NCBI RefSeq assembly: GCF_020179425.1
Contig: NZ_JAILYM010000001.1
Span: 1 to 64,000 of the forward strand
Direction of reading: 5' to 3'
DNA from: Novosphingobium percolationis
GTDB taxonomy: Bacteria; Pseudomonadota; Alphaproteobacteria; Sphingomonadales; Sphingomonadaceae
DNA: 64,000 nt
The translations under genes and the position numbers were made by a program. Under the pieces are notes generated by a model. That model saw only the letters and a program-made list of their open reading frames with translations, was not told the origin of the DNA and searched no databases. Shown in pieces: positions 16,112 to 38,311 of this stretch. Each line of letters starts with the position of its first letter. The first letter of the stretch is position 1.

Positions 16112-16113
16112 TA

Positions 16114-18117: not shown

Positions 18118-18543
18118 GGCAGCCTCCGGTGCGACGGGACGTTGTTCGTCCCTGTCCGCTCCTTGATCCTCTTCCTGACGGACGACGCTTTCCGCGCCTG
18201 TCCGGGCGGTTTCGCCCTTGCGCGATTGTCCTACCATCGCTGTCTTGCGATGTAAATATTCGCGGATGTTTCGAGCCGATGGCATACGGAAATCCGTCGA
18301 TGTTCACCACAGAACCCGCTTGGCATGATCACATCATAGACGTCGGAAAGAGCAATAAAAATGCATTAAAACAAAATCTTGACGCGCATTTCGTGGTGTA
18401 TTCCGGGCAGGTTCGACCGATCCGACAACCGGTCGTCCTGATCTAAAAACGTCTGACAATACCGTCGGTCGAAAAGGCCGGGCAGTTGGGAGTGGTATCT
18501 GGAGATCCGTACAGGGTTTCCGATGCCGGGAGAGAGGACAGCG
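18118..18543. other. Divergent regulatory region between LuxR and phosphotransferase-like genes
   Basis: About 425 bases without a gene. It holds a palindromic box at 18286-18297, an A-rich stretch at about 18340-18380, and at 18454-18465 a half-matching box (right arm CCGT only) that might serve the rightward operon beginning at 18544. No convincing small ORF was seen. Confidence 0.6.
18286..18297. promoter_or_regulatory. ACGG-N4-CCGT box upstream of luxR copy 1
   Basis: ACGG AAAT CCGT, a perfect dyad. Leftward, AATATT begins at 18260, 31.5 bases from the centre, giving a start about 130 bases ahead of the LuxR ATG. This suggests autoregulation. Confidence 0.6.
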
Positions 18544-23830: not shown

Positions 23831-24760
23831 ATGAGCGTCAGCGCCACCGACCTGATCGTCCACCAGTACAACCTCGAACCCGCCTTTTCGCGCAAGACGC
23901 GCGCGATGCTGGGTTTCAAGGACGCTGCATGGTTCGCCTGCGACCATTCCACGATCCTGCCCAAGCCCGAACTGGCGGCGCTGACGGGGGGCTATCGCCA
24001 GATCCCGGTGGCGCAGGTGGGGGCCGACATCTACTGCGGCAGCGAACTGGTGATGGACGTGCTCGAAGCGCGCATTCCCGAACCCTCGCTGACGCAGGCG
24101 AGCGGGCCGGGGCTGGGCCGGGGCCTTGCCTACTGGGCCGAGGATACGCTGTTCTGGCTGATCGTCCAGATCGTCTGCGGATCGGACTTCGCCTCGACCG
24201 AGCGCCCCGATTTCGATGCCGACCGCAAGCTGATGCTGCCCGGCATCTATGACGTGGCGGCGATGCAGGCGGCGCTGGCGACCAACATTCCGGTGCTGCG
24301 CGCGCATCTCGATCTGATCGAGCGGCAGCTGGCGGACGGGCGCCCGTTCATGCTGGGCGATGCTATGGACATAGCCGACATCTCGCTTTGGTTCCCGATC
24401 GACTTCCTGCGCCACTGCCGCAACGGCAACGAGCGCATTCCCGACGAATACCCGGCGATTGCGGCCTGGATGGGCCGTGTCGAGGCAATCGGCCATGGTC
24501 GGCGGCAAGAGATTTCGCGCAATGAGGCGCTGGCCGTGGCGCGGGCTGCAACGCCCACCGTGCGGCGGATCTCGACCGTGCGCGAAGGGCCGCAACCGGG
24601 CGACACAATCCGCTTCCAGTGGGGCGCTTACAGCCCGATCGACCTTGAAGGCGAAGTCGTGGAAGCCCATCCGCGCACACTGGCCGTGCTGCGCTCCGAT
24701 CCGCTGGCGGGCGAGGTGGTCGTCCACGTACCTCGCAGCGCGGGCGTTCTCATTTCCTGA
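23831..24760 (+). CDS. GST-like protein with extra C-terminal domain
   Basis: A 309-residue protein. The first ~200 residues follow the GST plan (YNLEPAFSRKTRAMLGFK; a cis-proline segment YRQIPVAQV; GSELVMDVLEA; then FMLGDAMDIADISLWFPIDF). The last ~80 residues (GDTIRFQWGAYSPIDLEGEVV...) form a small beta-rich extra domain. GGGAGAGCCTTCC precedes the ATG at 23831. It closes the rightward operon, and its 3' end overlaps the end of the convergent GST gene by 11 bases. Confidence 0.8.
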   Translation: MSVSATDLIVHQYNLEPAFSRKTRAMLGFKDAAWFACDHSTILPKPELAALTGGYRQIPVAQVGADIYCGSELVMDVLEARIPEPSLTQASGPGLGRGLAYWAEDTLFWLIVQIVCGSDFASTERPDFDADRKLMLPGIYDVAAMQAALATNIPVLRAHLDLIERQLADGRPFMLGDAMDIADISLWFPIDFLRHCRNGNERIPDEYPAIAAWMGRVEAIGHGRRQEISRNEALAVARAATPTVRRISTVREGPQPGDTIRFQWGAYSPIDLEGEVVEAHPRTLAVLRSDPLAGEVVVHVPRSAGVLIS

Positions 24761-25559
24761 ACGGCGACAGGCTCGCCAGAGGCGCAAGGTCGGTGAAGCG
24801 GATGGTGTCGGCGGCAAGGCCGTTCGCCACCACCACCGCACCGCCCGCGCGCATCATCCATTCCAGCCGGTGATCGCGGTAGTGGCGACGTAGCAGCCCT
24901 GCATCGAGCGCATCGGCCACGGTGTGCAGCAATTCGCTGCCCGCCTGCGATTCCGCGAACGTTTCCGCCACCGTCGGGCGCGCCGAGACGCGCGCGAACC
25001 AGCGCCCGAGTGGACGCGACGGATCAAGCGCCACACCGTTGAAGCGCGACCCTTCGATGAACGGCGCGACCACCACGTCGCCAAGGCCGAAGGCAGGGCC
25101 GCCGAACCACGGGTCGGCGCCCAGTTGAAGCTCCAGCCAATCGTGCAGCACGGCAAGGTCGGCGCGTGCGGCCGCGAACAGCGTTTGGGCAAGACCTTCG
25201 CCCTGGCCGCGTTTGAAGTAATTGAGTTCGAACAGGCCCCAGTTCACTGCCTCATAGTGGGTGTCGCAAACGTCCTCGATCATCCGCACCCGGGCCCGCG
25301 CGGCTGCGCTGGCCGGGCGTAACGGCACTTCAGGAAAGCGGTCCTCCAAGTATTCAAGGATCACCGTGGAATCGAACAGAACCACGTCGCCTTCGACGAG
25401 CGCAGGCGCTTCGGAGCGCGGGTTGGCAGCGATCAGCGCGTTCGAAACGCCCACCCCGATCCCGTCGGGCACTGCCGCGTCGAAAGGCAGCCCCTTTTCG
25501 CGCAGCGCGATCTTCACCTTCTCGACGAAGGGAGACAGCGGCGTGGACCACAGGAACAT
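24750..25559 (-). CDS. GST-like protein with conserved C-terminal tail (copy 2)
   Basis: A 269-residue paralogue of the protein at 14127. Shared features are TPLSPFVEKVKIALREKGLPF, the FDSTVILEYLED glutathione site, CDTHYEAVNWGL, and the tail with DHRLEWMMRAGG and IRFTDLAPL. The start is probably the ATG at 25559, 15 bases after the upstream stop, with no SD of note, so it is likely translated by coupling. It is the last gene of the dikinase operon, so a GST of this special type works in the same pathway as the phosphorylation/carboxylation genes. Confidence 0.8.
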   Translation of the reverse strand: MFLWSTPLSPFVEKVKIALREKGLPFDAAVPDGIGVGVSNALIAANPRSEAPALVEGDVVLFDSTVILEYLEDRFPEVPLRPASAAARARVRMIEDVCDTHYEAVNWGLFELNYFKRGQGEGLAQTLFAAARADLAVLHDWLELQLGADPWFGGPAFGLGDVVVAPFIEGSRFNGVALDPSRPLGRWFARVSARPTVAETFAESQAGSELLHTVADALDAGLLRRHYRDHRLEWMMRAGGAVVVANGLAADTIRFTDLAPLASLSPFRK

Positions 25560-25573
25560 GCTCAATGGTGGGC

Positions 25574-25972
25574 TCAACCCGCGACGGCGGCCAATGCCAC
25601 CACGGGCTGGCCAAATTCGATCAGCGCGCCCAGTGCATGGTGATGCGTCACAACTTCGCCGTCGCTCTCGGCCATGATCAGCGTTTCGCGGTCAAGCACG
25701 CGCAGCGTTGCAACAGCCTGGCCAGCCGATACGCGCTTGCCCACCGCAGCGACATCGGCCAGCGTGCCAAGGTGTGGCGCGGCCAGATCGTTGGCCGGGC
25801 CAACAGCGGCGGGAGGGGCCACCGCCGCCGGTTGGGCGGCGTAGCGCACCGTTGCGTCGCGGCTTAGGAACAGCGAGAGCCGGTCCGTCCGCACGTCGAG
25901 TGCGCGCGCCTTGGAATGAGCGAAAGTGCGCAATAGCGCGCGGGCTTCGTGCAGCGGCGTGGCTTCAGCCAT
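25574..25972 (-). CDS. Biotinyl-domain-like protein lacking the biotin lysine
   Basis: A 132-residue protein related to the biotin carrier at 36197: both have RTDRLSLFLSR / RTADIELFLSR after an N-terminal helix, an alanine/proline linker, and a C-terminal lipoyl/biotinyl-type beta-barrel. In the true carrier the barrel carries VEVMKL; here the aligned residues are RVLDRE, with aspartate 94 in place of the lysine, so it cannot be biotinylated at that position. It may be structural, holding the dikinase to the carboxylase, or bind a small ligand. Its ATG at 25972 overlaps the stop of the dikinase gene by eight bases. It has GGGGA upstream. Confidence 0.7.
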   Translation of the reverse strand: MAEATPLHEARALLRTFAHSKARALDVRTDRLSLFLSRDATVRYAAQPAAVAPPAAVGPANDLAAPHLGTLADVAAVGKRVSAGQAVATLRVLDRETLIMAESDGEVVTHHHALGALIEFGQPVVALAAVAG

Positions 25973-27506
25973 GATTGGTCCCCAGTACGGCAAGATCTTG
26001 TGCCTCGGGCACGGCGATGTAGCGCGTGTCGCCCGCTGCTTCGGCCCAGGCCAGCAGCTTCGACAGCCAGGGATGGTCGTTGGCCTCGGGGGCGATCATC
26101 GGCAGGGTGCCGGCATAGACCCTGCCCCCTCCATCGACGGTCACGACCTGTCCCGCCAGCGCCATTACGCCGCCGCCGCAGCCGACCACGCAGGGGCGGC
26201 CCAGCGCGCGGCTGACGACCGCGGCATGGCTGGTCGCGCCGCCTTGCGCGGTGATGATCGCCTTGGCGGCGATCATGCCGTGGATGTCGTCGGGGCTGGT
26301 GGTCTCGCGGGCGAGCACCACCGCTTCGCCTGCACGTGCGCGCGCTTCGGCCTCGTCGGGAGTGGTGACGACCACGCCGCTGGCGACGCCGGGGCAGGCG
26401 CCTTCGCCGCTGGCGATCGCGGTCAGCGTATCGGCACTGTCCACCGCCAGACGCGGGCGCAGGATTTCGAGCGTCTGCTCACGCGAGACGCGGGCCAGCG
26501 CTTCAGCGCAGTCGATCAGACCTTCTTCGGCCATTTCGACCGCGCAGCGCACTGCGGCTTCGGGCGCGCGCTTGGCCGAGCGCGCCTGCAGCAGGTAGAG
26601 CTTGCCCTTCTGCACGGTGAACTCGATGTCTTGCATATCGCGCGAGTCCTGCTCGAGCGTTTCCGAGGCGGCGAGCAGCTGATCGTGCGCCGTGCGCACG
26701 CGCTCGTGCATGGCTTCAAGGCGCAGCGGGGTGAACTTGCCCGAAACGACATCCTCGCCCTGTGCCTTGGGCAGGTATTCGCCGAAAGGCACGCGCTCAC
26801 CCGAGAGCGGATTGCGGCTGAACAGCACGCCGGTGCCGCTGTCCTCGTCGAGGTTGCCGAATACCATCGCCTGGATGGTGACGGCGGTGCCGAGATCGTC
26901 GGGGATGCTGTTGTGCTGGCGATACTTGCGCGCGCGGCGGCTGTTCCAGCTGTCGAAGACGGCTCGCACAGCGGCCTTCAGTTGTGCGCGCGGATCGAGC
27001 GGCACGTTCTGGCCGGATGCGGCTTCGATTTGGGCGCGCCATGTGGCCGGATCGGCACCTGCTTCCAGATGCGCAGGGGCTCTCAGGACGATGCTGGCGA
27101 AGAGTTCGAGGAAGCGGCGGTGGGTGTCGCGGGCAAAGCCCGGCTCACCGCTTTCGGCGGCCAGCGCGGCTTCGGTCTGATCCGAGATGCCGAGGTTGAG
27201 CACGGTGTCCATCATGCCCGGCATCGAAATTGCCGCGCCGGAGCGCACCGACAGCAGCAGCGGGGTGCTGCCGTCGAAGGTGCGCCCGGTCTGCGCTTCC
27301 AGCCAGGCGAGGCCATCAGCAATTTCGGCATCGAGGCCTTCGGGCCAGCCGCCGTCCTGATAGGCGGTGCAGGCCTTGGTGGTGACAACGAAGGCCGGGG
27401 GCACCGTCAGTCCCAGCGAGAGCATTCGGGCGATCGACCAGGCCTTGCCGCCGATCAGCGCGCGGTCGGGCAGGACCTGCCCATCGAGTTTCAGAGTCCA
27501 CGACAT
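25965..27506 (-). CDS. PPDK/PEP-synthase-like dikinase: ATP-grasp plus phosphohistidine domain
   Basis: A 513-residue protein that resembles the first two-thirds of pyruvate phosphate dikinase and lacks the C-terminal PEP/pyruvate-binding barrel. The N-terminal ATP-binding part shows LIGGKAWSIARMLSLGLTVPP, then SVRSGAAISMPGMMDTVLNLG and GVLFSRNPLSGE. The phosphohistidine domain has GGATSHAAVVSRALG with histidine 427. In phenylphosphate synthase and in the acetovanillone dikinases, such truncated proteins move a phosphoryl group from ATP to a phenolic hydroxyl, releasing AMP and phosphate. I start at the ATG at 27506. It is the third gene of the operon, after two partner proteins. Acetovanillone-type phenols are the favoured substrate by context. 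Confidence 0.85.
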   Translation of the reverse strand: MSWTLKLDGQVLPDRALIGGKAWSIARMLSLGLTVPPAFVVTTKACTAYQDGGWPEGLDAEIADGLAWLEAQTGRTFDGSTPLLLSVRSGAAISMPGMMDTVLNLGISDQTEAALAAESGEPGFARDTHRRFLELFASIVLRAPAHLEAGADPATWRAQIEAASGQNVPLDPRAQLKAAVRAVFDSWNSRRARKYRQHNSIPDDLGTAVTIQAMVFGNLDEDSGTGVLFSRNPLSGERVPFGEYLPKAQGEDVVSGKFTPLRLEAMHERVRTAHDQLLAASETLEQDSRDMQDIEFTVQKGKLYLLQARSAKRAPEAAVRCAVEMAEEGLIDCAEALARVSREQTLEILRPRLAVDSADTLTAIASGEGACPGVASGVVVTTPDEAEARARAGEAVVLARETTSPDDIHGMIAAKAIITAQGGATSHAAVVSRALGRPCVVGCGGGVMALAGQVVTVDGGGRVYAGTLPMIAPEANDHPWLSKLLAWAEAAGDTRYIAVPEAQDLAVLGTNHG

Positions 27507-27519
27507 CACTTCATTCCCA

Positions 27520-28125
27520 TCATTCAACGCGCGTCTGGCCCATGATCCGCAGCAGGTCCTCGTGCAGTTCGAACCAGACAGTGTGGTAGCTGTCGCGGTG
27601 GATATCGCTGACCCACTCGGGTTGGCCGGATTCGACCCTGTCGAGCGCGGCTTCGAGCTTGCGGCCATAGATCGCCATGCGCGGCAGTCCGCGTGCAAGG
27701 CCCGCCAGCACCGTCTCGGCGCGTTCGTGCAGTGTGCAGAGCCGGTCGATTACCTTGTCGTCGTAGTCGGGATCGCTGTGGTCGTTGACCCGGCGTTCGC
27801 CGCGCACGTTCATCGTCTGCCAGTCGGTGATGACGGACTTGAGTTCGGGATTGATCCGTTCGAACCCATGGTACGCGGCGGCAAAACCCGCATCGGCGCG
27901 CTGGGCGGCGAAATCGACTTCGTACCGCGATTGCAGCGCGACGCGGGCGAGCGGGGTGAGAGTGTAGGCACCCTGCGCCTCGATCGCGCGTCCCGAGGCG
28001 ACGGCCGTGGCGAGCTGTGCCTGCGCCGCGTCAGGCGAAAGGCCGGTGAGGTCTGCCACGGCTTCAGCCTTGGCGTGGCGCTTGATGGCAAGGCCGTGGA
28101 GCGCGAGGTTGCGATCGTCCATCAT
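27520..28125 (-). CDS. 201-aa partner protein of the dikinase
   Basis: A mostly helical 201-residue protein with no motif I can name. The N-terminal 70 residues resemble a small winged-helix fold (HAKAEAVADLTGLSPDAAQAQL then YTLTPLARVAL). The C-terminal half is rich in charged helices (DRLCTLHERAETVLAGLARGL). Its ATG at 28125 overlaps the stop of the second phosphohistidine protein (ATGA) with GGGAGA upstream, and the dikinase gene follows 13 bases after its end. By position it should be a subunit or regulator of the dikinase, comparable in place, not in sequence, to the third subunit of phenylphosphate synthase. Confidence 0.7.
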   Translation of the reverse strand: MMDDRNLALHGLAIKRHAKAEAVADLTGLSPDAAQAQLATAVASGRAIEAQGAYTLTPLARVALQSRYEVDFAAQRADAGFAAAYHGFERINPELKSVITDWQTMNVRGERRVNDHSDPDYDDKVIDRLCTLHERAETVLAGLARGLPRMAIYGRKLEAALDRVESGQPEWVSDIHRDSYHTVWFELHEDLLRIMGQTRVE

Positions 28126-28874
28126 GCGGCGTCTCCCACGATCCAAACGCGACCGGTGCGCTCCGTGGCGGTCTGGTAGTCTTCGGTTGTGCGGGGGGGG
28201 GCGGTGGCTTCCATCTCCACCGTATCGCCATCGCGAATGCCGCTCAGCTTGGCGTTCATGAAGCAGGGGATGCCATATTCGCGCGACAGGATGCCGAGGT
28301 GCGATCGTACCGTGCCGCCCGCGCAGAGGATGCCGGCGAACTGTTCGATGATCGGCGCCGTGAGTGTGCCGCCCGAATCGTCGATGATCGCGATGGTGCC
28401 CGACGGCACGCCTTCGGTCAGGTAGGCCAATACGCGCTCGTTGGTGCGGATGTAGCGCGCGGTGCCGGTGACGTTGGCCTCGTGCCGGACAACGTTATCG
28501 CCCTGGCCCGCCAGCGCGCGGCCTTGTTCGTCTGCTTCGGCGGTGACCGCCTCGGGGTGATCGAACACCACCGCGCTGCTCTGGTCGCCGCCGCCCTTGT
28601 AAGCTTCAGGACGTTCGGCGAGCGAGATCGCCGCCGACCAGTCGAAGCGGTGCCCGGCATCGAGCAGGGCCTGTTCGACGACAGCAACGTCGTCCTTCGT
28701 GACGTTGCAGCCCAGCCCGGCAAAGGCGAAGTCGCCAAAGTCCGTGCCGCCGGCGGCCAGATGGGCGTCGAAAGCGGCGCGAACCTTCTGGTGGAGCAGG
28801 CCGAGCGTCGCTTCCACGATCGGGCTGGCGGGCGGCGGGACGGGCCGCATCTGGTCAATCGGCAGGCGTGCCAT
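28122..28874 (-). CDS. PEP-utilising-enzyme-like phosphohistidine-domain protein
   Basis: A 250-residue protein. The C-terminal half is a phosphohistidine (PEP-utilising mobile) domain with GGTVRSHLGILSREYGIPC, placing the likely phospho-carrier at histidine 192, followed by IRDGDTVEMEAT. The N-terminal 120 residues are unlike PPDK and may bind the acceptor. GGAGAGG precedes the ATG at 28874. It is the first gene of the leftward dikinase operon, and faces surE across a regulatory region with GntR-type operators. Having two separate phosphohistidine proteins suggests a relay or two alternative acceptors. Confidence 0.78.
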   Translation of the reverse strand: MARLPIDQMRPVPPPASPIVEATLGLLHQKVRAAFDAHLAAGGTDFGDFAFAGLGCNVTKDDVAVVEQALLDAGHRFDWSAAISLAERPEAYKGGGDQSSAVVFDHPEAVTAEADEQGRALAGQGDNVVRHEANVTGTARYIRTNERVLAYLTEGVPSGTIAIIDDSGGTLTAPIIEQFAGILCAGGTVRSHLGILSREYGIPCFMNAKLSGIRDGDTVEMEATAPPRTTEDYQTATERTGRVWIVGDAA

Positions 28875-28928
28875 GGGGAAACCTCTCCTTCGTATGCTGC
28901 GACAATTCCACATTAGCGACGCCCGAAC

Positions 28929-28950
28929 GACTGACGAATTTCTGTCAGTC
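28929..28950. promoter_or_regulatory. Inverted repeat operator 1 between dikinase operon and surE
   Basis: GACTGAC and GTCAGTC flank an 8-base AT-rich spacer. It lies 55 bases upstream of the dikinase operon start and 70 bases upstream of surE. The core shares CTGAC with the second repeat nearby, so the same regulator may bind both. Confidence 0.55.
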
Positions 28951-28964
28951 GATCATCTGTCGTT

Positions 28965-28977
28965 TTTGTCTGACAAA
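28965..28977. promoter_or_regulatory. GntR-type operator 2 (TTGT-N3-ACAA)
   Basis: TTTGTC-T-GACAAA, a perfect 6+1+6 dyad. It contains TTGT-CTG-ACAA, the core bound by many FadR/VanR-type GntR proteins, and a FadR-type GntR gene lies just after surE. It therefore probably controls surE-gntR and the divergent dikinase operon. Confidence 0.65.
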
Positions 28978-29018
28978 GATGGTGACAAGGCAAGCGATTG
29001 AAGGTTAGGATTGGCGCT

Positions 29019-29849
29019 ATGAGTGGAATGGAAGGCATTGCAGGCAAGCGGATCCTGATCGTCAACGACGACGGTATCGACGGCCCCGGCATAAAGCTGC
29101 TGGAAAGCATCGCGCGCGAGTTTTCGGACGATGTGTGGGTTGTGGCACCCGACGAGGAGCGTTCGGGCGCGAGCCAGGCGATCTCGATCTCGCATCCCAT
29201 CCGCTACAGCCAGCGCGACGAGCGCCACTTTGCGGTGCGCGGCACGCCCACCGATTGTGCGCTGCTGGGGATCAACGTGTTCCTCGAAGGGCGCAAGCCC
29301 GACATCCTGCTTTCGGGTATCAACGCCGGGCCGAACCTGGCCGAGGATGTCCACTATTCGGGCACTTGCGCCGCCGCGAAGGAAGGCGCGCTGCTGGGCA
29401 TTCCCTCGTTCTCGCTGAGCCAGATGCGGTCCTATGGGGTGCCGACGCTTTGGGAAGCGTCGGAGACGCACCTGCCGGGGATCATGGGCAAGCTGCTGGG
29501 GATGGACTGGCTGCCGGGCAGCTTCGTCAACATCAACGTGCCCAACCTGCCGGCCGCACAGATCGCGGGGGTGAAGGTCACGCGGCAGGGTCAGCGCCTG
29601 CCCGGTGGGTTCCTGCCGGTGCGCCGCGTGGACGAACGCACGGTGCCCTATTTCTGGGTCAAGATCAGTCCTAACGCGCCCGAACTGGTCGAAGGCACCG
29701 ATCTGCACGCGGTGGCCCACGGCGCGATCTCGGTTACGCCGATGCAGCTCGACCTGACGCACACGCGCATCGCGGCGGAAATCGCCGGGATGTTCGGCGA
29801 TGCGGACCTGACGGCGGCCGTGGTTGCGGGCGCGGAAGCGTGCATCTAG
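29019..29849 (+). CDS. surE: SurE-family phosphatase
   Basis: A 276-residue SurE-type metal-dependent phosphatase. Family motifs present are the metal site ILIVNDDGID near residue 17, the APDEERSGASQAIS segment, GTPTDCALLG, and SGINAGPNLAEDVHYSGT followed by AAAKEGALLGIPS. The AGGA eight bases upstream supports the ATG at 29019. Housekeeping SurE proteins dephosphorylate nucleoside monophosphates and usually sit near pcm or rpoS; this one is instead divergent from a dikinase operon and co-transcribed with a GntR gene. I infer that it removes the aryl phosphate after carboxylation. Confidence 0.9.
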   Translation: MSGMEGIAGKRILIVNDDGIDGPGIKLLESIAREFSDDVWVVAPDEERSGASQAISISHPIRYSQRDERHFAVRGTPTDCALLGINVFLEGRKPDILLSGINAGPNLAEDVHYSGTCAAAKEGALLGIPSFSLSQMRSYGVPTLWEASETHLPGIMGKLLGMDWLPGSFVNINVPNLPAAQIAGVKVTRQGQRLPGGFLPVRRVDERTVPYFWVKISPNAPELVEGTDLHAVAHGAISVTPMQLDLTHTRIAAEIAGMFGDADLTAAVVAGAEACI

Positions 29850-29859
29850 GGATGGTGGC

Positions 29860-30561
29860 GTGAACAAGACCGAGGTGATTTCCGATGCCGAAACCGGCGA
29901 GGTCAAGGACACCATCCAGCGCCTTGCCGATGGCATCATCTATTGCATCCGTGCCGGGCAAATGGTGCCGGGCCAGCATCTGGTCGAAGCCGACCTTACA
30001 CGGCGCTTCAACGTCAGTCGCGGCTCGCTGCGCGAGGGCTTGAAGCACCTCGCCGCCGACGGCATCGTCACGCTCACCCGTTTTCGCGGCGCGTTCATCT
30101 CGGCGATGGACCGCAAGGCTGTACATGACCTTCTCGACGTGCTCGAACCGCTCTGCTCGCTGGCCGCGCGGCTTGCGGCGGAACGCGGCGGCACGCCCAA
30201 GCAGATGGAAACGCTACGGCTCATAGCGCAGGAAATCGCCCGGCGCGGCGCTGGTGCACAAATCGCCTCCTATCTCGAAAACCGCCGCCATTTCTACGAT
30301 CTGTTGATCGAGATGGGCGGCAACGGTGAACTGGGCCGGGTGATCCCGCTGACGCGCACCGATCTGTTCCGCGCTCAATTCGACAAGGTCCAGACGCGCG
30401 AGCAGCAAAAGCGCCATGCCGTCGGCTATGGCCGCATTGCCGAGGCGGTTGTCGCGCGCGATCCAGGTAAGGCGGAAAAGGCCGTGCGCAAGCACTTCAT
30501 TGGGACGCGCGCCACCGTCGACGAACTGCCCGACGAAGCGTTCAGTGCGACATATGTCTGA
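29860..30561 (+). CDS. GntR-family regulator (FadR/VanR type)
   Basis: A 233-residue regulator with an N-terminal winged helix-turn-helix (GQHLVEADLTRRFNVSRGSL then REGLKHLAADGIVTL) and a C-terminal all-helical FCD-type sensing domain. I favour the GTG at 29860: the ATG a little upstream runs into a stop in its own frame. It starts ten bases after surE and is co-transcribed with it. It probably binds the dyads at 28929-28977, represses surE and the dikinase operon, and is released by the aromatic substrate or its phosphorylated form. Confidence 0.87.
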   Translation: MNKTEVISDAETGEVKDTIQRLADGIIYCIRAGQMVPGQHLVEADLTRRFNVSRGSLREGLKHLAADGIVTLTRFRGAFISAMDRKAVHDLLDVLEPLCSLAARLAAERGGTPKQMETLRLIAQEIARRGAGAQIASYLENRRHFYDLLIEMGGNGELGRVIPLTRTDLFRAQFDKVQTREQQKRHAVGYGRIAEAVVARDPGKAEKAVRKHFIGTRATVDELPDEAFSATYV

Positions 30562-30567
30562 GCGGGG

Positions 30568-31794
30568 CTACAGCCGCTCCAGAATGGTCACGCAGGACAT
30601 GGCATCTTCCACGCCGTAGAACCCGCCGCTGTTCTCCGCGAGCGCAATCTTTGCGCCTTCGACCTGACGCTGACCTGCAAGCCCACGCAGTTGCGTGACA
30701 AGCTCGTGGATCTGGGCAAGGCCCGTCGCCCCCAGGGGATGGCCTTTTGAGACAAGCCCTCCCGATACGTTGATCGGGCAGCGTCCGCCCAGCGAGAGTT
30801 CCCCGCGCAGCGCCGCGGGACCTGCCTCGCCGGGCGAGGCAAGGCCCACCGCCTCGATCTGGACGACTTCTCCCGAGGAACTGGCATCGTGGACTTCAGC
30901 AAGCTGGATGTCCTGCGGGCCGACGCTCGCATCCTCATAGGCAAGCCGCGAGACCCGTCCGCTGACATGCGCTGCATAGTCCGCCGGATCGCGGTCAGTG
31001 CCGGTCAGCGAACGGCAGGCGCGGATGCGGATGGCTCCGCGCGCGGCGAAGCGGGGCGTAAGCTCTGCTGCACAGACCACTGCCGCACTGGCCCCGTCGC
31101 TGATCGGCGCACACATCGGGACGGTCAGCGGCCAGGCTACGGCGGGCGCGGCCATGACCTCCTCGATGCTCATCGCGTTGCGGTACTGCGACAGCGGGTT
31201 CCACTGCGAATGCATGTGGTTCTTGGAACTGATCGCGGCGAAGTGCTGCTGCGTGGTGCCATAGGTCGCCATATGCAGGCGGGCCTGTGCGGCATAGGCC
31301 TCCATCAGCACATTAGGGCTAGGGCCATCGAAGCCTGCCGGAACCGGGGCAAGGCGACCGGTCGTGGTCGTGAGATAGCGCTGTGCTTCCACGACATCGA
31401 GTGGTTGCTGGAAGACCGCGAGCCGCTTGTCGCGGTCATCGTTGTAGAGCTTTTCGGCACCCACCGTGAGGACCACATCGGCAATGCCCGTGCGGACGAG
31501 ATCGTAGGCTAGGTGCAGTGCCATCGTCCCGCTCGCGCAGGCCGCTTCCACCCGAAACGCGCGCACGCCGGTGATGCCGAGCGGACGCAAGGCGTATTCG
31601 CCGGGTATCGACATCTCGCCCGTGACGAAGGCCTGCACCACGTTGGCGTAGACCGTGGTGTCGAGATCGGAGGCCACGATCCCGGCATCGGCCATCGCTT
31701 CGCGCGCGGCCTGCTGGATCAGGTCTGTGTGGGTCAAGTCGCGGTGACGGCCGAAGGGCGTCATGCCCACGCCGATGATGTCGACGGCGCGCAT
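30568..31794 (-). CDS. Thiolase family protein (SCP-x-like)
   Basis: A 408-residue thiolase. The nucleophilic cysteine is C87 in VEAACASGTMALHLA, and the second catalytic site is histidine 352 in GGLVSKGHPLGATG. The usual C-terminal cysteine motif CxGGG is replaced by LAENSGG, as in the SCP-x thiolase-like branch. Its ATG overlaps the stop of the ligase gene by one base. As last gene of the carboxylase operon it would cleave the CoA ester of a beta-keto acid, such as vanilloylacetyl-CoA, with CoA to an aroyl-CoA and acetyl-CoA. It converges with the GntR gene, six bases apart. Confidence 0.88.
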   Translation of the reverse strand: MRAVDIIGVGMTPFGRHRDLTHTDLIQQAAREAMADAGIVASDLDTTVYANVVQAFVTGEMSIPGEYALRPLGITGVRAFRVEAACASGTMALHLAYDLVRTGIADVVLTVGAEKLYNDDRDKRLAVFQQPLDVVEAQRYLTTTTGRLAPVPAGFDGPSPNVLMEAYAAQARLHMATYGTTQQHFAAISSKNHMHSQWNPLSQYRNAMSIEEVMAAPAVAWPLTVPMCAPISDGASAAVVCAAELTPRFAARGAIRIRACRSLTGTDRDPADYAAHVSGRVSRLAYEDASVGPQDIQLAEVHDASSSGEVVQIEAVGLASPGEAGPAALRGELSLGGRCPINVSGGLVSKGHPLGATGLAQIHELVTQLRGLAGQRQVEGAKIALAENSGGFYGVEDAMSCVTILERL

Positions 31795-33350
31795 CAGATC
31801 GTCCTCTCGCGGTTCTGCCAGTAGGGCTTGCGCAATTCGGCGCGCAGGACCTTGCCCGCGTTGCTGCGCGGCAGGCTGTCGATGTAGGTCAACTGCTTGG
31901 GCGTCTTGACCGCGCCCAGGCGTTCGCGCGCAAACGCCAGCAGGTCCTCGACCGGCGGCGGGGTGACCCCGGCGCGGCATTCGACCACGGCGGTCACCTG
32001 TTCGCCCCACTTGTCGTCGGGAGTGCCGAAGACGGCGCAATTCTGCACGGCGGGGTGGGCGTGGAGCGCCTGTTCGACTTCCGCCGGGTAGACGTTGAAG
32101 CCGCCCGAAATGATCATGTCCTTCTTGCGGTCGACGATGAAGAACCAGCCGTTGTCATCGCGATAGCCGATGTCGCCGGTGTGGTGCCAGCCGAAGCGTG
32201 AAGCCTCCGCCGTGGCTTCGGGGTTCTTGTAGTAGCCCGCCATCACCAGCGGTCCGCGCACCACGATTTCGCCGTGCTGGCCGGGGGGAAGCAGGTTGCC
32301 GTCATCGTCCATGATCTCGACGCGGCTGAGCAGGTTGGCCTGACCGCACGAACCGGGATGCGCCAATTCACCATCGGCGCCCAGATGCAGGTGCGGCGGC
32401 ATGGCGGTGACGCACATCGGGCTTTCGGTCTGACCGAAGCTGGCGTTCATCACCGGGCCGAACACTTCGATGGCCTCTTTCAGCCGGTCGAGCGACATCG
32501 GCGCGCCGGCATAGGAGATGTATTCGAGGCTGGAGAAATCGCGGGTTCGCACGCCGGGATGCGACAGCAGCATGTAGATCGCCGTGGGCGGCAGGAACAT
32601 GTAGGTCACGCGGTGCCGCTCGATGGCGTCGAGCACGGCGGCCGGCTCGAATTTCGGCAGCACCACCACCGTTCCCCCCAGCGCCATGCTGGCGAGCGCC
32701 AGCGGCCCAGCGGCGTGGGTCATCGGTGCGGCGACAAGGTTCACCGGCGGCTGCTTCATCGGCATCGAAGCGACGAGGCTGGAGACCAGCGATTGCCACA
32801 CGAGGTTGGTCAGCATCACCCCGCGCGAACGCCCCGTGGTGCCCCCGGTGTTCGCGAGGAAGGCGAGATCGTCGGGCGCGCCGCTGCGGCGTTCGGGCAC
32901 TTCGCCGTCGCCCGCCGCCGCGATCCAGTCGCCGAGGAAGGCGTCGGCTTCAGCCAAAGGCACGTCGATGCTGACATAGCGACGGATGTTGGGGCACTGC
33001 GCGCGGAACGCCGTGATGCGGTCGGCGACTTCGGAATGGAAGAACAGCGTGTCCACGTCGAGCAGGTCGAGCAGGTAGGCGTTTTCATCCACCGAGGCGC
33101 GGTTGTTGGCCATGGTCCACACGCCATCGGCGCGCAGGATGCCCAGGATCGCCTCGAACGCGGTGGGATCGTTGCCCGAAAGCACCGCCCCGTGCGCGCC
33201 GGGGGCAAAGCCGTCCGCGATCAGGGCATGGGCGATGCGGTTCGATCGCTCGCGCACCTCGCGGTAGCTGCGGCTGCCCGTATCGGTCACCATGCAGGGC
33301 CGGTCGGGCGCATTGCGCGCGCCCCGGTCGAAGAAGTCGATCATGCGCAT
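31794..33350 (-). CDS. Acyl-CoA synthetase (AMP-forming)
   Basis: A 518-residue ANL-superfamily ligase. The phosphate-binding loop is FLANTGGTTGRSRGVML, the hinge region is DIGYRDDNGWFFIVDRKKDM followed by IISGGFNVYPAEVE, and the C-terminal catalytic lysine lies in LPRSNAGKVLRAEL. It starts at 33350 or two codons later; the gap to the carboxyltransferase gene is 13 bases. Within this operon the natural substrate would be the 3-aryl-3-oxopropanoate made by the carboxylase, loaded onto CoA for the following thiolase. Confidence 0.9.
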   Translation of the reverse strand: MRMIDFFDRGARNAPDRPCMVTDTGSRSYREVRERSNRIAHALIADGFAPGAHGAVLSGNDPTAFEAILGILRADGVWTMANNRASVDENAYLLDLLDVDTLFFHSEVADRITAFRAQCPNIRRYVSIDVPLAEADAFLGDWIAAAGDGEVPERRSGAPDDLAFLANTGGTTGRSRGVMLTNLVWQSLVSSLVASMPMKQPPVNLVAAPMTHAAGPLALASMALGGTVVVLPKFEPAAVLDAIERHRVTYMFLPPTAIYMLLSHPGVRTRDFSSLEYISYAGAPMSLDRLKEAIEVFGPVMNASFGQTESPMCVTAMPPHLHLGADGELAHPGSCGQANLLSRVEIMDDDGNLLPPGQHGEIVVRGPLVMAGYYKNPEATAEASRFGWHHTGDIGYRDDNGWFFIVDRKKDMIISGGFNVYPAEVEQALHAHPAVQNCAVFGTPDDKWGEQVTAVVECRAGVTPPPVEDLLAFARERLGAVKTPKQLTYIDSLPRSNAGKVLRAELRKPYWQNRERTI

Positions 33351-33363
33351 CGTGTGTCGCCCG

Positions 33364-34818
33364 TCAGTTGCGCAGCGTCAGGTCGAGCGCTTCGGTCTTG
33401 AGCCGCACTACGGGCGCGGTCGCCACGCGCATCAGCTTTTCGACCTGTGCCAGTTCGGGCGAGGACAGCATGGGGAAGTCCTTGGCGGGCGGGCCCGACT
33501 TGCGCATCCGGGCAATGTCGGAGGCCGGAACCAGCGCGCGCAGGATCAGCTCGTCCTCGTCGTCGGTGCCGTGCTGGCGCTTGAGGTCGGCGAGGGTCGG
33601 TTCGGGCGGCGGGTTGTCGAAGATTTCCTTCGCACGCGGGGCCGAGGCGATGCGGTCCATCACGTTCGGATCGATCGGCGCGGGCGGCTCGCCATAGTAG
33701 CCCGCCGCATACTGGATCACCTCGTCGGGGATCGCGCCATAGCGCTTGCCGGTGACGATGTTGAGCACCGCCAGCGTGCCGATCAGCTGGGCAAACGGCG
33801 TCGCCATGCCGGGATAGCCCAGCTCTCGCCGCACCGCGCCCACTTCCTCGAGCACCACGGGCAACTGGTCTAGCATGTTCTGCTGCGCCAGCTGGTTGCG
33901 CAGGGTGCCCATCATGCCGCCGGGGATCTGGCTGGTCAGCGAGGTGACGTCGTATTCGTAGGACTGGTCGTGCAGGTAGCCCGCAGCCTTGGCCACCTTG
34001 CGGAAGTGGTCCGACACTTCCTGCAACTTCGACGTGTCGATGTCGTGGGTGTGGCCCAGCGCCTCCATGTTCTTGATCATGATGTCGATCGAAGGGATCG
34101 ACGGGCCGTTCGCCATCGAGCGCGCAGCGGTGTGCAGCACGGTCACGCCGAATTCGACCGCATCGCAATAGGCCTTGGCGCTCTGGCCCAGCATGTTGTT
34201 CGAATGCAGCTCGATCGGCTTGCCGCGCGCCTTTGCCTTGATCGCGGGGATCAGCGTCTTGATCCGGTCGCGATCGAGCACGCCGCCGGTATCGTAGAGC
34301 AGCAGGCTGTCGACGTCGGGCAGCGCGGACAGCTTGTCGGCCTTGTCCGCCCAGAACGCATCGTCATGCACGGGCGAGAGCGTGAACAGCATCGTCGCGG
34401 CGACCTTGCAGTCGTACTTCTTCGACAGCTTGGCGAGGCGCGCCATCTTGTCGACGTTGAACAGCACGTCGTAGATCCACCACGAGCGCACGCCGTGGAC
34501 GCACAGGCGCTCCATCCACAGGTCCATCAGCACCTGCGGGGTGAAACCGAACGTCACCGAGCCGTTCGAGCGGATGCCGCCGCGCACCGGGGTGTGCTTG
34601 ATCTGGCTCATCATCAGGTCGAAGCCCGCCCAAGGGTCTTCATGGCAATGGCGGGTCAGCACTTCGAACAGCGAGGAGCCGGCAAGGCTGATCGTGGAAT
34701 AGCCGGTCTTGTCGATGGTCGGCAGCACCGGATAGGCCTGTCCCGCCTGCATCCGCATACCCCAGAGGCTTTGCTGGCCGTCGCGGCAGGTTTCGTCGAG
34801 GAAGCTGATATGCGCCAT
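33364..34818 (-). CDS. Biotin-dependent carboxyltransferase (OadA/pyruvate-carboxylase-like)
   Basis: A 484-residue protein with the DRE-TIM barrel of the oxaloacetate decarboxylase alpha / pyruvate carboxylase carboxyltransferases (DETCRDGQQSLW at the N-terminus; ATPFAQLIGTLAVLNIVTGK toward the end) and no attached biotinyl domain. The active site is changed: where pyruvate carboxylase has the carbamylated lysine in KDMAG, here it is Y175 in LYDTGG, and the metal-binding HTHD is HSNN (H205-N208), losing one histidine. So it is likely to use another acceptor than pyruvate. Together with the biotin carboxylase and carrier upstream it should carboxylate an aromatic methyl ketone, probably in phosphorylated form. 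Confidence 0.82.
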   Translation of the reverse strand: MAHISFLDETCRDGQQSLWGMRMQAGQAYPVLPTIDKTGYSTISLAGSSLFEVLTRHCHEDPWAGFDLMMSQIKHTPVRGGIRSNGSVTFGFTPQVLMDLWMERLCVHGVRSWWIYDVLFNVDKMARLAKLSKKYDCKVAATMLFTLSPVHDDAFWADKADKLSALPDVDSLLLYDTGGVLDRDRIKTLIPAIKAKARGKPIELHSNNMLGQSAKAYCDAVEFGVTVLHTAARSMANGPSIPSIDIMIKNMEALGHTHDIDTSKLQEVSDHFRKVAKAAGYLHDQSYEYDVTSLTSQIPGGMMGTLRNQLAQQNMLDQLPVVLEEVGAVRRELGYPGMATPFAQLIGTLAVLNIVTGKRYGAIPDEVIQYAAGYYGEPPAPIDPNVMDRIASAPRAKEIFDNPPPEPTLADLKRQHGTDDEDELILRALVPASDIARMRKSGPPAKDFPMLSSPELAQVEKLMRVATAPVVRLKTEALDLTLRN

Positions 34819-34833
34819 GGCTTGTGTTCCGGC

Positions 34834-36192
34834 TTACTGGCCGAGGCTGGGCAGGAGGACCTGCTCGAGCCAGCGGGTGTGAATGGAATTGCTGCGGAAA
34901 TCGGGGTGGGCAACGATCGCCCGGTGCAGGCCTATGGTGGTAGGCACGCCCTCCACCACGAAGTCGGCCAGCGCGCGTTCGAGCCGCGCGATCGCGTCAG
35001 CCCGGTTTTCCCCGGTAACTATCAGCTTGCCGATCATGCTGTCGTAGTAGGGCGGGATCGTCGCGCCCTCGCTCATGTGCGTATCGAGCCGCACGTCGTC
35101 GCCCGCAGGCGGTGACCAGCGCGTGATCGTGCCGGGCGAGGGGATGAAACCGCGCTCCCAGTTCTCGGCATTGATGCGGCATTCGATGGCGTGGCCGGTG
35201 ACGGCGATGTCGGACTGGTCGATGTCGAACGTCTCGCCGCCCGCGATGCGCAATTGCCAACCGACAAGGTCGTGCCCGCTGACCATCTCGCTCACCGGGT
35301 GTTCCACCTGGATGCGCGCGTTGACCTCGATGAAGTAGATTTCCTCGCGCTCGACGTCGAACAGGAACTCGGCGGTGGCCGCGCCCTTGTACTTGACGCT
35401 GGAGGCGAGTGCGACGGCGCTGGCGTGGAGCTGGCGGCGCAGGTGCTCAGGCATCGCGGCAGACGGCGCTTCCTCGATCAGCTTCTGGTAGCGGCGCTGG
35501 ACCGAACAGTCGCGCTCGCCGAAATGCAGCACCTTGCCGGTGCCGTCGCCCATCAACTGGACTTCGACGTGGCGGGCGCGGGGTACGAAGCGTTCCATGA
35601 ACAGCGTGCCATCGCCGAACGCGCTTTCCGCCTCGGCGCTGGCCTTCCCGAACCCGGCTTCGACATCGGCGCGGTTGTGCGCGATTACCATGCCGCGCCC
35701 GCCGCCCCCGGCAGAGGCCTTGAGCAGCACGGGATAACCGATTTCCTCGGCCACGCGCACGGCATCGGCGGCGCTGGCGATCTGGTCGCTGCCGGGCACG
35801 AGGGGCACGTTGGCGGCGCGGGCCATGCCGCGCGCCTGGATCTTGTCGCCCAACGCCTCGATCGTGTCGGCGTCCGGCCCGACGAAGGCAATGCCGTTCG
35901 CGGCGCACAGGCGCGGCAGGATCGGGCGTTCGGACAGGAAACCATAGCCCGGATGGAGGCCATCGCAGCCGGTTTCGCGCGCGGCATGGACCACCAGCTC
36001 GGCGTCGAGATAGCTCTTCGCGGCAGGGCCGGGGCCGAGCACAACCACGCGGGTTGCCGCGCGCGCTGCGGCGCTGTCGCGGTCGGCCTCGGACACACCG
36101 AGCACGGTTTCGATGCCCAGCTTCTGCGCCGCGCGGATCACCCGCAACGCGATTTCGCCCCGGTTGGCGACAAAGACACGGGTCAGCGCCAT
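34834..36192 (-). CDS. Biotin carboxylase subunit
   Basis: A 452-residue protein of full AccC length. It has FVANRGEIALRVIRAA at the N-terminus, the ATP-grasp glycine loop KASAGGGGRGM, HVEVQLMGDGTGKVLHFGER, and the catalytic segment EVNARIQVEHPVSE with glutamate, asparagine and arginine kept. It phosphorylates bicarbonate and carboxylates the biotin of the separate carrier (gene four bases upstream). The ATG at 36192 is clear. It is dedicated to this operon; housekeeping acetyl-CoA carboxylase genes would lie elsewhere. Confidence 0.93.
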   Translation of the reverse strand: MALTRVFVANRGEIALRVIRAAQKLGIETVLGVSEADRDSAAARAATRVVVLGPGPAAKSYLDAELVVHAARETGCDGLHPGYGFLSERPILPRLCAANGIAFVGPDADTIEALGDKIQARGMARAANVPLVPGSDQIASAADAVRVAEEIGYPVLLKASAGGGGRGMVIAHNRADVEAGFGKASAEAESAFGDGTLFMERFVPRARHVEVQLMGDGTGKVLHFGERDCSVQRRYQKLIEEAPSAAMPEHLRRQLHASAVALASSVKYKGAATAEFLFDVEREEIYFIEVNARIQVEHPVSEMVSGHDLVGWQLRIAGGETFDIDQSDIAVTGHAIECRINAENWERGFIPSPGTITRWSPPAGDDVRLDTHMSEGATIPPYYDSMIGKLIVTGENRADAIARLERALADFVVEGVPTTIGLHRAIVAHPDFRSNSIHTRWLEQVLLPSLGQ

Positions 36193-36196
36193 GGCC

Positions 36197-36712
36197 TCAG
36201 CCCACCGGCTCGAGCGCGAACAGAGGCGCGCCTTCGGCCACCATCTCGCCGTCCCTGGCGAGGATCTGCCGGATGACGCCCTTACTCGGCGCGCTGACGG
36301 CGGTGAACAGCTTCATCACTTCGACAAGGCACAGGTCGGTGCCCGCCTCGACCGTCTGGCCCAGCTCGACGAAGTTCGGCTCGCCCGGCTTGGGCGCGCG
36401 GTAGAACGTGCCGAGGTAGGGTGCGGTGACCACCACGTGGCCATCGGCCACCGCCGTCGATGCAGCGGGTGCAGGTGTTGCCGCAGTCGCTGGGGCGGGG
36501 GGCGCTGCCGAGGTGCTGGCCTTAGGCGCAGCAGGAGCCGCTGCAACTGGAGGCGCAGCCATGGACACGCGGCCCATGGCGAAATCGGCATCGGGATTGC
36601 GCGACAGGAACAGCTCGATGTCGGCCGTACGCAAGTGCATCTCGGTCAGGTCCGAAGCCTGAAACTGGCGGACGAGGGCTTCGAGATCCTCATCCTGTTG
36701 CGGATTGGTCAT
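36197..36712 (-). CDS. Biotin carboxyl carrier protein
   Basis: A 171-residue carrier. An N-terminal helical segment (DLEALVRQFQ; RTADIELFLSR) is followed by an alanine/proline linker (about residues 50-90) and the biotinyl domain, where the biotin lysine is K134 in VEVMKL. I start at the ATG at 36712 after AAGGATATAAGC. It lies between the 522-aa protein and the biotin carboxylase. Its diverged relative without the lysine is at 25574. Confidence 0.92.
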   Translation of the reverse strand: MTNPQQDEDLEALVRQFQASDLTEMHLRTADIELFLSRNPDADFAMGRVSMAAPPVAAAPAAPKASTSAAPPAPATAATPAPAASTAVADGHVVVTAPYLGTFYRAPKPGEPNFVELGQTVEAGTDLCLVEVMKLFTAVSAPSKGVIRQILARDGEMVAEGAPLFALEPVG

Positions 36713-36742
36713 GCTTATATCCTTCCGTTCGGGGCGCATCGC

Positions 36743-38311
36743 TCAGGCCTTGCCGCGCAAGCCCTCGATCTGCTCTGGCGTCAGCCCCAAGCCCTTGCCC
36801 CTGAGATTGCGCGAAAGGCGCTGTTCCAGCCGGTAGAGCTGGTCGACGCGCGGATCGGCAGGGTTCCACTTGATCCAGGTGTCGTTGAGGCCCCGCAACT
36901 CGGGCGCCATCTGCGCCGGGCGGCATGCCTTGGCACGCGCGTTGTAGTCGGCCAGCGTCAGCACGCCTTCGCTAGTGGTGTAGCTGTCGAGCTTTCTGGC
37001 GTGTGTGGTGACGCCCGGCGCAATATCGTTGCCCATGCTGGCACCGTGGCCATCGCACACCGTGAAGGGGATATGGGTAATGTAGCGTGCGCTCTGGTTG
37101 TTGTGCTGCATCATCACATGAGAGGGCTGGTGCTGGCTGGGCAGGTCCACGAGGCCGACCATCTCGCCCAGGAAATCGCGCCCGAACTCGTCGTTGAGTA
37201 GCGGGCGGAAGCGATCCGCGCGCTCGTCGATCGTCATCCAGTCGTCGTGCTCATAGACCCCGGCGACGTGGGCGAAGTCCTTGATCAGCGAGAAATAGAC
37301 GAGCGCGCCCGAATCCATCATCTCGTCGCGGCTCCACCCGGCCACGCGCTTCCACAGCGCCGCGATCGCCTCGCGCACCTTCTCAGTCAGATCCTCGAAG
37401 GTGGTCGCCAGTTCCTCGGCGCTGCCCATGCCGACCGGGATGTGGCCGTCGGACAGAACGTCGGAGGTGTAGAGGCCCACGCCTACCAGCTTGTCTGCGG
37501 TGAACTCGGGCTTGCTTTCGAAGCTGCCCCAGTCGTCCATGAGGTAGAAGTGGCAGTCCTTCACTTCCATGGTGACGGTCAGATTGTTGTACGGGATCTT
37601 GTCGCCCACGCCGTCGAGCCAGGGGTAATCGCCCTGCGCCAGATCAGTGAAGTCGCGGATGATCAGTTCGCGGTCCGCGTCGAGGCGATAGGGACCGGAA
37701 TTGTTGAGCGTGCAGCGGCTTTCGCAGCTGATCATGAAGCCGTATTGCGACACGGCGGCGAGGAAGCCGTGCGCGGCCTTGTGCAGCCTGTCCCCGGCAA
37801 CGCAGCGATGCGCGTCGGCGTGGAACACCTGCACCGTGCGTTCGGGCAGAAGCTGCACGCGTTGGCCGAATTCGCGGGCGTTGAGATGGCCGTCCTCGCG
37901 CTGTTGCGCCAGCTTGAAGCGGCGCCAGAAGTCGAGCACGTAGACCACGTCTTCCGCCGCATCCTCGGGGCGCAGCATCCCGAAGTTGATCAGCATCTCG
38001 CGGCCCAGCAGATAGAACGTGGGCAGGCCCCAGCCGGGCAGGTTGCCGAACTTGCCGCTCATCGACCGGGCGCGGTCGCCTATTTCTTCGGCAGGCACCG
38101 ACGCCTCGATCTTCCGCAGCAAGGCTGGATAGCGATAGAAGCAGTTGAGGTAGCTCAGCAGCATGTACGCCGGGACGGGGAAGAGCTTCGATTCCTGAAC
38201 CGTGCGCGTGACGCAGAGCCAATAGGTATCGTCGCCGATCGTCTGGATTGCGTTGTTGGCCTCAAGCACCTGGCGATAGGTTAGGTTGCCGCTTTTGCCG
38301 GTATCCTGCAT
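36743..38311 (-). CDS. Unrecognised 522-aa protein of the carboxylase operon
   Basis: I cannot assign this protein to a family. It is soluble, without signal peptide or membrane segments, with many aromatic and histidine residues: HADAHRCVAGDRLHKAAHGF near residue 170, FMISCESRCTLNNSGPYR near 200, DFAHVAGVYEHDDWM near 360, and a run HQPSHVMMQHNNQSARYITH near 420. The N-terminal 130 residues are helical. I start at the ATG at 38311, which has GAGAG before it. As first gene of the operon, 30 bases before the biotin carrier gene, it is probably a further carboxylase subunit, for example the one that binds the phosphorylated ketone. It faces the second LuxR gene across a box. Confidence 0.7.
   Translation of the reverse strand: MQDTGKSGNLTYRQVLEANNAIQTIGDDTYWLCVTRTVQESKLFPVPAYMLLSYLNCFYRYPALLRKIEASVPAEEIGDRARSMSGKFGNLPGWGLPTFYLLGREMLINFGMLRPEDAAEDVVYVLDFWRRFKLAQQREDGHLNAREFGQRVQLLPERTVQVFHADAHRCVAGDRLHKAAHGFLAAVSQYGFMISCESRCTLNNSGPYRLDADRELIIRDFTDLAQGDYPWLDGVGDKIPYNNLTVTMEVKDCHFYLMDDWGSFESKPEFTADKLVGVGLYTSDVLSDGHIPVGMGSAEELATTFEDLTEKVREAIAALWKRVAGWSRDEMMDSGALVYFSLIKDFAHVAGVYEHDDWMTIDERADRFRPLLNDEFGRDFLGEMVGLVDLPSQHQPSHVMMQHNNQSARYITHIPFTVCDGHGASMGNDIAPGVTTHARKLDSYTTSEGVLTLADYNARAKACRPAQMAPELRGLNDTWIKWNPADPRVDQLYRLEQRLSRNLRGKGLGLTPEQIEGLRGKA

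Follow-up and report, generated by a model that had tools for sequence, protein, structure and literature searches.

The locus described here occupies positions 24750-38311 of a 64,000-nucleotide stretch of Novosphingobium percolationis (contig NZ_JAILYM010000001.1, positions 1 to 64,000, forward strand), referred to throughout as the window. It carries a putative dikinase divided over several polypeptides next to a biotin-dependent carboxylase. All named genes are open frames within these limits. Most lie in two tight minus-strand blocks, which are separated by the plus-strand genes for a SurE-type phosphatase and a GntR/FCD regulator. A first-pass annotation, made from the sequence, had noted that dikinase parts, SurE, a complete biotin carboxylase, an acyl-CoA ligase and a thiolase are packed together here, and all were found, as listed below with sizes in amino acids (aa).

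36743..38311, minus strand: 522-aa protein, putative substrate-binding module of a split dikinase and opening gene of operon 2 (fusions, AlphaFold model)
36197..36739, minus strand: biotin carboxyl carrier protein (BCCP) with an EVMKL biotin site (PF00364, 5.7e-17; MK motif)
34834..36192, minus strand: biotin carboxylase (BC; Biotin_carb_N/C and ATP-binding domain)
33364..34818, minus strand: carboxyltransferase (CT), PYC/OADA type (PF02436, 6.7e-26; 2nx9 alignment; tree)
31794..33350, minus strand: AMP-forming acyl-CoA ligase (PF00501, 7e-68)
30568..31794, minus strand: thiolase (PF22691, 7.3e-37; Thiolase_N, 9.9e-20)
29824..30561, plus strand: GntR/FCD regulator (PF07729, PF00392)
28998..29849, plus strand: SurE-type phosphatase (PF01975, 5.5e-53)
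28122..28874, minus strand: swivel (PEP-utilizer) protein with a phospho-acceptor-type His in GGTVRSHL (PF00391, 3.3e-7)
27520..28125, minus strand: 208-aa protein, MarR-like in the annotation of relatives, predicted accessory of the PPDK-short kinase (gene context, fusions)
25965..27527, minus strand: short PPDK-type kinase of the VadK type, with ATP-grasp and its own swivel and without the pyruvate domain (NF004531, 668.7 bits)
25574..25993, minus strand: BCCP-like 139-aa protein without a biotinyl lysine (PF00364, 2.5e-4, slightly under the cut-off)
24750..25577, minus strand: glutathione S-transferase-like (GST) protein, last gene of operon 1 (GST_N)

From the 522-aa gene to the thiolase, the genes of operon 2 are separated by gaps of 3, 4, 15 and 13 bp followed by a 1-bp overlap, and the swivel and 208-aa genes overlap by 4 bp (ATGA). 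Judging from this spacing, both blocks are probably transcribed as operons. The ligase (PF00501) and the thiolase lie, as first annotated, in the carboxylase operon, operon 2. Two of the gene roles originally assigned were corrected: the 522-aa protein is now counted as part of the kinase, and no biotin lysine is present in the carrier-like protein of 139 aa.

GTDB genomes were scanned with a CT alignment, and the best 80 of at least 561 relatives were taken as loci, designated below by L and a number. Because the CT served as bait, this set is biased toward the CT, and searches were therefore also started from the 522-aa protein. A homologue of that protein is present in 46 of the 80 fetched loci, and 39 of these 46 contain all seven core genes (522, swivel, 208, PPDK, BCCP, BC and CT). 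Among the seven loci short of the core set, L025, L029, L036 and L038 are without operon 1 in the fetched stretch, PPDK and BC were not found in that of L101, and L093 and L094 are discussed below. A single run in the order swivel-522-ligase-208-PPDK-BCCP-BC-CT, often with an acetyl-CoA acetyltransferase after the CT, was found in 27 of the 39 full loci and the two-block order of the window in 11; the remaining one, L102, has a single run with no ligase match.

Searching 296 genomes of the order with the 522-aa protein gave five matches besides the window's own genome. All four that cover at least 88% of the protein have a CT within ∼20 kb; the fifth (G016) is a partial match, 26% identical, with no CT on its 16.5-kb contig. 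Seven plasmid records were matched, and a CT lies within 10 kb in each of the three whose match spans 80% or more of the protein; the other four are 23-24% identical to the 522-aa protein, and CT adjacency was counted only for the former three. When the 522 profile was run against an even sample of 398 genomes across the phylum, the window's own genome was the sole match; the system is therefore rare, and its known distribution rests on the other searches. Hosts, according to record titles, include Rhodobacteraceae, Rhodocyclaceae, Haliea and other groups. Plasmids of Rhodococcus oxybenzonivorans and R. pyridinivorans carry the whole set in one run, with an OB-fold protein, a thiolase and a tyrosine-type phosphatase (Y_phosphatase3). 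On the basis of gene content, in 39 of 46 loci and in the searches started from the 522-aa protein, co-occurrence of the gene set exceeds chance.

The short PPDK scores 668.7 bits against NF004531 (cut-off 456) and is a member of the short-PPDK family with a phospho-His domain. Its His434 is invariant in the 18 rows of alignment A5, and the motif GG.[TV]SHAA is found in 46 of 49 orthologues; of the exceptions, L056 retains the His, and the motif was not found in L086 and L087. Note that in the window, L103 and L027 the PPDK is ∼520 aa long, with a C-terminus ∼50 residues shorter than in most orthologues listed. The separate swivel protein has an invariant His192 in alignment A4, and its motif occurs in 43 of 44 orthologues, the exception (L027) being a 217-aa frame without the motif. 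The 522-aa and 208-aa proteins are joined to these components by natural fusions. R. opacus B4 has a 793-aa protein in the order swivel (residues 19-143), 522 (228-548) and 208 (603-790), with E values of 5e-14, 2e-15 and 9e-13, respectively. Two loci from gammaproteobacterial metagenome-assembled genomes (L093 and L094) encode 722-aa proteins in which 522 and 208 are fused, and in Rhodococcus PEP542/PEP577 the swivel is fused to a 522-like domain. Short PPDK kinases with different partners are likewise accompanied by members of the 208-aa family on plasmids from Diaphorobacter, Mycobacterium branderi and two strains of Rhodococcus; in one case the 208-aa member is fused to an AMP-binding protein. 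Because 522, 208 and swivel occur fused to one another, they are probably parts of one kinase, and together these data indicate a predicted dikinase split over four polypeptides: the PPDK-short, the 208-aa accessory, the separate swivel and the 522-aa module.

No match to the 522-aa protein was obtained in Pfam, NCBIfam or PADLOC at E 0.001, and PADLOC returned nothing for the 522-aa, 208-aa and swivel proteins. Its AlphaFold model (pLDDT 87.6, pTM 0.89) gave no significant match in the PDB by Foldseek (best E 0.2) or VIA-align (best Z 3.4); matches this weak neither show a new fold nor exclude an RPH-like (rifampin-binding-type) domain. The 208-aa model (pLDDT 94) has weak matches only, among methyltransferases and regulators of the winged-helix type, with a best E of 0.016.

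Among characterised kinases, the closest relative found appears to be VadK (Rv1127c) of M. tuberculosis, the kinship resting on the shared short-PPDK form. According to PMC13400623, VadK uses ATP and Mg to autophosphorylate at His422, and it is reported to interact with enzymes of the methylcitrate cycle and to tune flux. Both kinases are short PPDKs with ATP-grasp and phospho-His domains. That paper assigns VadK a regulatory function, whereas the window kinase is encoded together with a carboxylase and with the swivel, 522-aa and 208-aa proteins.

Phosphorylation followed by carboxylation is known from the Hpe gene set of Rhodococcus rhodochrous GD02 (HpeHICBADEF), whose kinase, carboxylase and phosphatase were demonstrated with purified enzymes (PMC9618137). 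Comparisons with Hpe and Acv drew on that paper, on PMC12167813 (HpeHI) and on PMC13101465 (pathways), and the Acv system of Sphingobium SYK-6 (AcvABCDEF) is represented by the latter and by gene content. A kinase, a three-part biotin carboxylase, a phosphatase, a CoA ligase and a cleavage enzyme are common to Hpe/Acv and the window; the CoA ligase and the enzyme cleaving beta-ketoacyl-CoA, a feature of Acv/Hpe, are present in operon 2, where the latter is a thiolase. Separate Acv-type clusters exist in the same family. One genome with such a cluster, probably that of Sphingobium SYK-6 and referred to here as SYK-6-like, has a six-gene layout: a kinase subunit of up to 670 aa, a 347-aa ATP-grasp subunit, BCCP, BC, CT and a HAD phosphatase. 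Plasmid pRlBT01c of Rhizobium leguminosarum has the same layout plus an acetoacetate-CoA ligase. Relative to the SYK-6-like and R. leguminosarum clusters, respectively, the window BC is 54% and 49% identical, the CT 35% and 35%, and the BCCP 36% and 33% over its length; the window PPDK is 24-28% identical to their ATP-grasp subunits over ∼255 residues. The 522-aa, 208-aa, ligase, thiolase and SurE proteins had no match below E 0.1 against these two clusters.

The window kinase matches PPDK (1vbg) at E 1.4e-119 versus 3e-5 for HpeI (9GOJ) and thus does not qualify as an HpeI/AcvB-type subunit; the AcvB-like subunit of the SYK-6-like genome matches 9GOJ at 9.5e-78. In hhalign comparisons with a 12-sequence AcvA-type profile (positive control, 99.9%), probabilities were 0.25% for 522 and 0.36% for 208, and the swivel profile was the sole match, at 93.5%. 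A search of two AcvA-type proteins for 522 by hmmsearch with --max gave no match. Compared with Hpe/Acv, the window kinase has another ATP-grasp type, an unrelated substrate module, an extra 208-aa protein and a separate swivel protein. Outside the kinase, SurE takes the place of the HAD phosphatase and the thiolase that of the HpeF hydrolase, the CT belongs to a separate clade, and its metal-ligand positions are altered.

Aromatoleum aromaticum EbN1 degrades 4-hydroxyacetophenone with TioL and AcsA alongside an Xcc carboxylase, and this XccABC/TioL/AcsA set shares with the window the grouping of carboxylase, thiolase and CoA ligase. XccABC is reported to be ∼50% identical to HpeCBA (PMC9618137) and would thus be expected to fall with Acv/Hpe.

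The CT has a PF02436 match above the cut-off (6.7e-26) and an HMGL-like match below it (5.1e-6). The first-pass annotation had named methylcrotonyl- or propionyl-CoA carboxylase kinship as evidence against its reading; the CT is instead of the PYC/OADA type, and no PF01039 match was listed in the domain search. It belongs to the family of the pyruvate carboxylase/oxaloacetate decarboxylase CTs (2NX9, 5KS8), aligns with 2nx9 at E 6.9e-61 and retains the RD..QS and TP..Q stretches. The metal ligands of 2NX9 are Asp17, carbamylated Lys178, His207 and His209. In the alignment, CT Asp13 and His205 correspond to Asp17 and His207, but Tyr175 stands at Lys178 and Asn207 at His209, so that the full ligand set (Asp, Lys, His, His) is not kept in the window. 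Tyr and Asn occupy these two positions in all 80 fetched loci (the best 80 of at least 561 relatives). Lys and HxH are kept in 15 Acv, Tm-1 and outgroup rows, and three Rhodococcus rows of the window's own CT clade have Glu and HxH. Since kinase-less CTs share the Tyr/Asn change and Rhodococcus copies with a 522-type kinase do not, the change is not tied to the kinase alone.

In the CT tree, which does not include HpeB or XccC and for which the tool warns of long branches meeting between the window and Acv-type groups, the Acv and Tm-1-associated CTs form one clade (13 rows, support 100/100) and the window CT another (34 rows, 100/99) that includes the Rhodococcus, D-type (L045, L065 and L083) and kinase-less CTs. 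In four loci (L019 and L021, on plasmids from Sphingobium yanoikuyae and Pseudomonas putida, plus L160 and L161, from two genomes of the family), an Acv-clade carboxylase and a HAD phosphatase are accompanied by a Tm-1-like ATP-binding protein, possibly an alternative kinase, in place of the two-part kinase. In terms of sequence, then, the cluster is a lineage separate from Acv/Hpe with the same pathway logic. Of the phosphorylate-then-carboxylate reading proposed at the outset, the logic, which follows the published Hpe route (PMC9618137), is probably right; the kinship with Acv/Hpe did not hold, given the different ATP-grasp subunit, substrate module, phosphatase and CT clade.

We consider it an evenly balanced proposition that the two operons form one catabolic module for a distinct phosphorylate-carboxylate-thiolyse route. 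The four-part dikinase would use ATP to charge a histidine, from which the phosphate would go to a substrate bearing, or able to present, a hydroxyl. BCCP, BC and CT would then add CO2 next to a ketone, SurE would presumably remove the phosphate from the carboxylated intermediate, the ligase would make the beta-ketoacyl-CoA, and the thiolase would cleave it to acetyl-CoA and a shorter acyl-CoA. The sequences themselves show which genes are present and how closely they are packed, their recurrence together, the fusions, the conserved histidines and biotin site, and the altered CT positions. The order of these steps, the role of SurE, a transfer from histidine to histidine and the nature of the substrate are all inferred. 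The tyrosine-type phosphatase of the Rhodococcus plasmids, an unrelated replacement of SurE, fits a need for phosphate removal, and a BioB-like gene adjoining the cluster in N. resinovorum also counts in favor of such a module. So do the fusions, the two recurrent gene orders, the autophosphorylation of VadK and the work with purified Hpe enzymes.

Several observations weigh against it. A SurE match is linked in just 22 of the 46 loci with the 522-aa gene, the Rhodococcus tyrosine-type phosphatase was matched in one (L093) and the Acv-type HAD phosphatase reference in none, so that a linked phosphatase may not be a constant part of the system. With two of the aligned metal-ligand positions lost, the chemistry of the CT may differ from that of pyruvate carboxylase. 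Loci L093 and L094 have kinase parts (522 fused to 208) and a CT, with no PPDK, BC or BCCP in the fetched stretch. In the D-type loci, PPDK-short occurs with the same carboxylase, but swivel, 522 and 208 have no match there, and no kinase lies near several of the close relatives of the CT. Neighbors of two such kinase-less copies (L041 and L046), at one point considered as an Hpe-type kinase, were dropped because their sequence starts resemble ABC-transporter genes.

The D-type arrangement, together with the interaction of VadK with methylcitrate-cycle enzymes and its tuning of flux (PMC13400623), could also be explained if PPDK-short were a regulatory histidine kinase and the carboxylase acted on an unphosphorylated ketone. 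We regard this as very unlikely, because a substrate kinase is what the 522/208-swivel fusions suggest, as do the phosphatase genes that adjoin many of the copies. An extended form of the phosphorylation route, which we judge unlikely, would make the kinase a new small-molecule dikinase class with a histidine-to-histidine relay. In it, the VadK-type kinase would charge its own swivel, the 208-aa protein would dock it, and the phosphate would move to the separate swivel, which would serve an exchangeable substrate module, here the 522-aa protein. The product would feed a CT with a partly lost metal site, so that phosphorylation (perhaps an enol phosphate), rather than a metal, would activate the ketone.

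For the substrate of the proposed module, a ketone with an enolizable carbon seems likely, since relatives of the CT act next to ketones and the ligase and thiolase fit a beta-keto acid. Acetovanillone had been put forward in the first-pass annotation, and nothing found points specifically to it. That either acetovanillone or 4-hydroxyacetophenone is used, with the phenol phosphorylated and the acetyl group carboxylated as in Acv/Hpe, is quite unlikely in our estimation, although the pathway logic is common to both. The genome encodes PobA (630 bits) and, ∼9 kb from it, a LigB-type dioxygenase, so 4-hydroxybenzoate could be used downstream. Moreover, a close copy is hosted by Croceicoccus bisphenolivorans, going by its name a bisphenol degrader, and bisphenol A breakdown yields 4-hydroxyacetophenone. 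Against this, the kinase subunits, phosphatase and CT clade are unlike those of the SYK-6-like cluster, the kinase is also unlike HpeI, the family has Acv-type clusters at other loci, and the record titles place the system in hosts as varied as Rhodobacteraceae, Rhodocyclaceae and Haliea. A methyl ketone or tertiary alcohol of isoprenoid or alicyclic type, from which the PPDK-type kinase would make an enol or tertiary phosphate for the unusual CT, is possible but still rather unlikely. A linalool dehydratase/isomerase (Ldi; PF18566, 1.5e-88) lies at 2738-4765 of L045, beside a D-type thiolase-PPDK-BCCP-BC-CT run; it was profiled in L045 only, with a same-cluster homologue in L065, and L045 has no 522 match. 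The N. resinovorum copy is adjoined by a P450, aldehyde and alcohol dehydrogenases, an acyl-CoA dehydrogenase and an APH kinase; Sphingobium sp. YR768 has homologues of the P450 and of the aldehyde and alcohol dehydrogenases, and R. opacus B4 has a P450 beside PPDK-short. The window, too, has an APH kinase and a weakly DUF7065-like protein near the cluster. On a Methylibium petroleiphilum PM1 plasmid (L114, 7669-10558), a 522-like protein, a small swivel and a 208-like gene lie near cobalamin-dependent mutase genes, but insertion sequence (IS) elements are nearby. The Lys/His change in the CT would suit a substrate of this kind, yet it is also found in loci without the kinase and is absent from Rhodococcus copies with a 522-type kinase, and neighborhoods vary. 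The P450s and the Ldi of the sister locus suggest that an isoprenoid or alicyclic ketone may be at least as much indicated as acetovanillone; none of the neighboring-gene hints for either substrate is decisive.

Additional features were noted in and around the locus. Divergent from operon 2 is a gene of the LuxR type. The biotin lysine (MK motif) is missing from the 139-aa protein and from 11 relatives among the genome-collection loci; a twelfth match, in L089, is BCCP itself. For the thiolase, the nearest NCBIfam models are lipid-transfer/thiolase-domain families, with scores under their cut-offs, and the GST had no match with at least 40% coverage among the fetched loci. A perfect 8-bp inverted repeat with an 8-bp spacer (28928-28951), possibly an operator, lies between the divergent swivel and SurE genes; no second copy occurs in the window at up to 3 mismatches, a tolerance at which shuffles average 0.41 matches. 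Elsewhere in the window, 16102-17298 encodes a weakly DUF7065-like protein and 18523-19536 an APH-type kinase; a 522-aa homologue is present in 11 of 15 loci with the DUF7065-like family and in 10 of 11 with the APH-type kinase family. The same genome has another carboxylase of this clade on contig C22 (L163; CT 61%, BC 75%), accompanied by a BCCP, a 139-like protein and a gene whose sequence start resembles BioB; the 20 kb covered there gave no kinase match.

Searches aimed at this gene combination in an open-access library, which lacks most subscription papers, yielded no description of it; the HpeHI and VadK papers alone seemed pertinent, and no biochemical data were found for any cluster member. 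In the texts of PMC9618137, PMC12167813 and PMC13101465 consulted, phenolic ketones are the only compounds for which phosphorylation and subsequent biotin-dependent carboxylation are described. The cluster would be a second phosphorylate-carboxylate lineage, distinguished by the build of its kinase and by its altered CT and present in several proteobacterial groups and on Rhodococcus plasmids. Genes annotated as “PEP-utilizing”, “MarR” and short “PPDK” are repeatedly found side by side on plasmids, and the cluster suggests a function for them; it also suggests that VadK relatives may act on small molecules.

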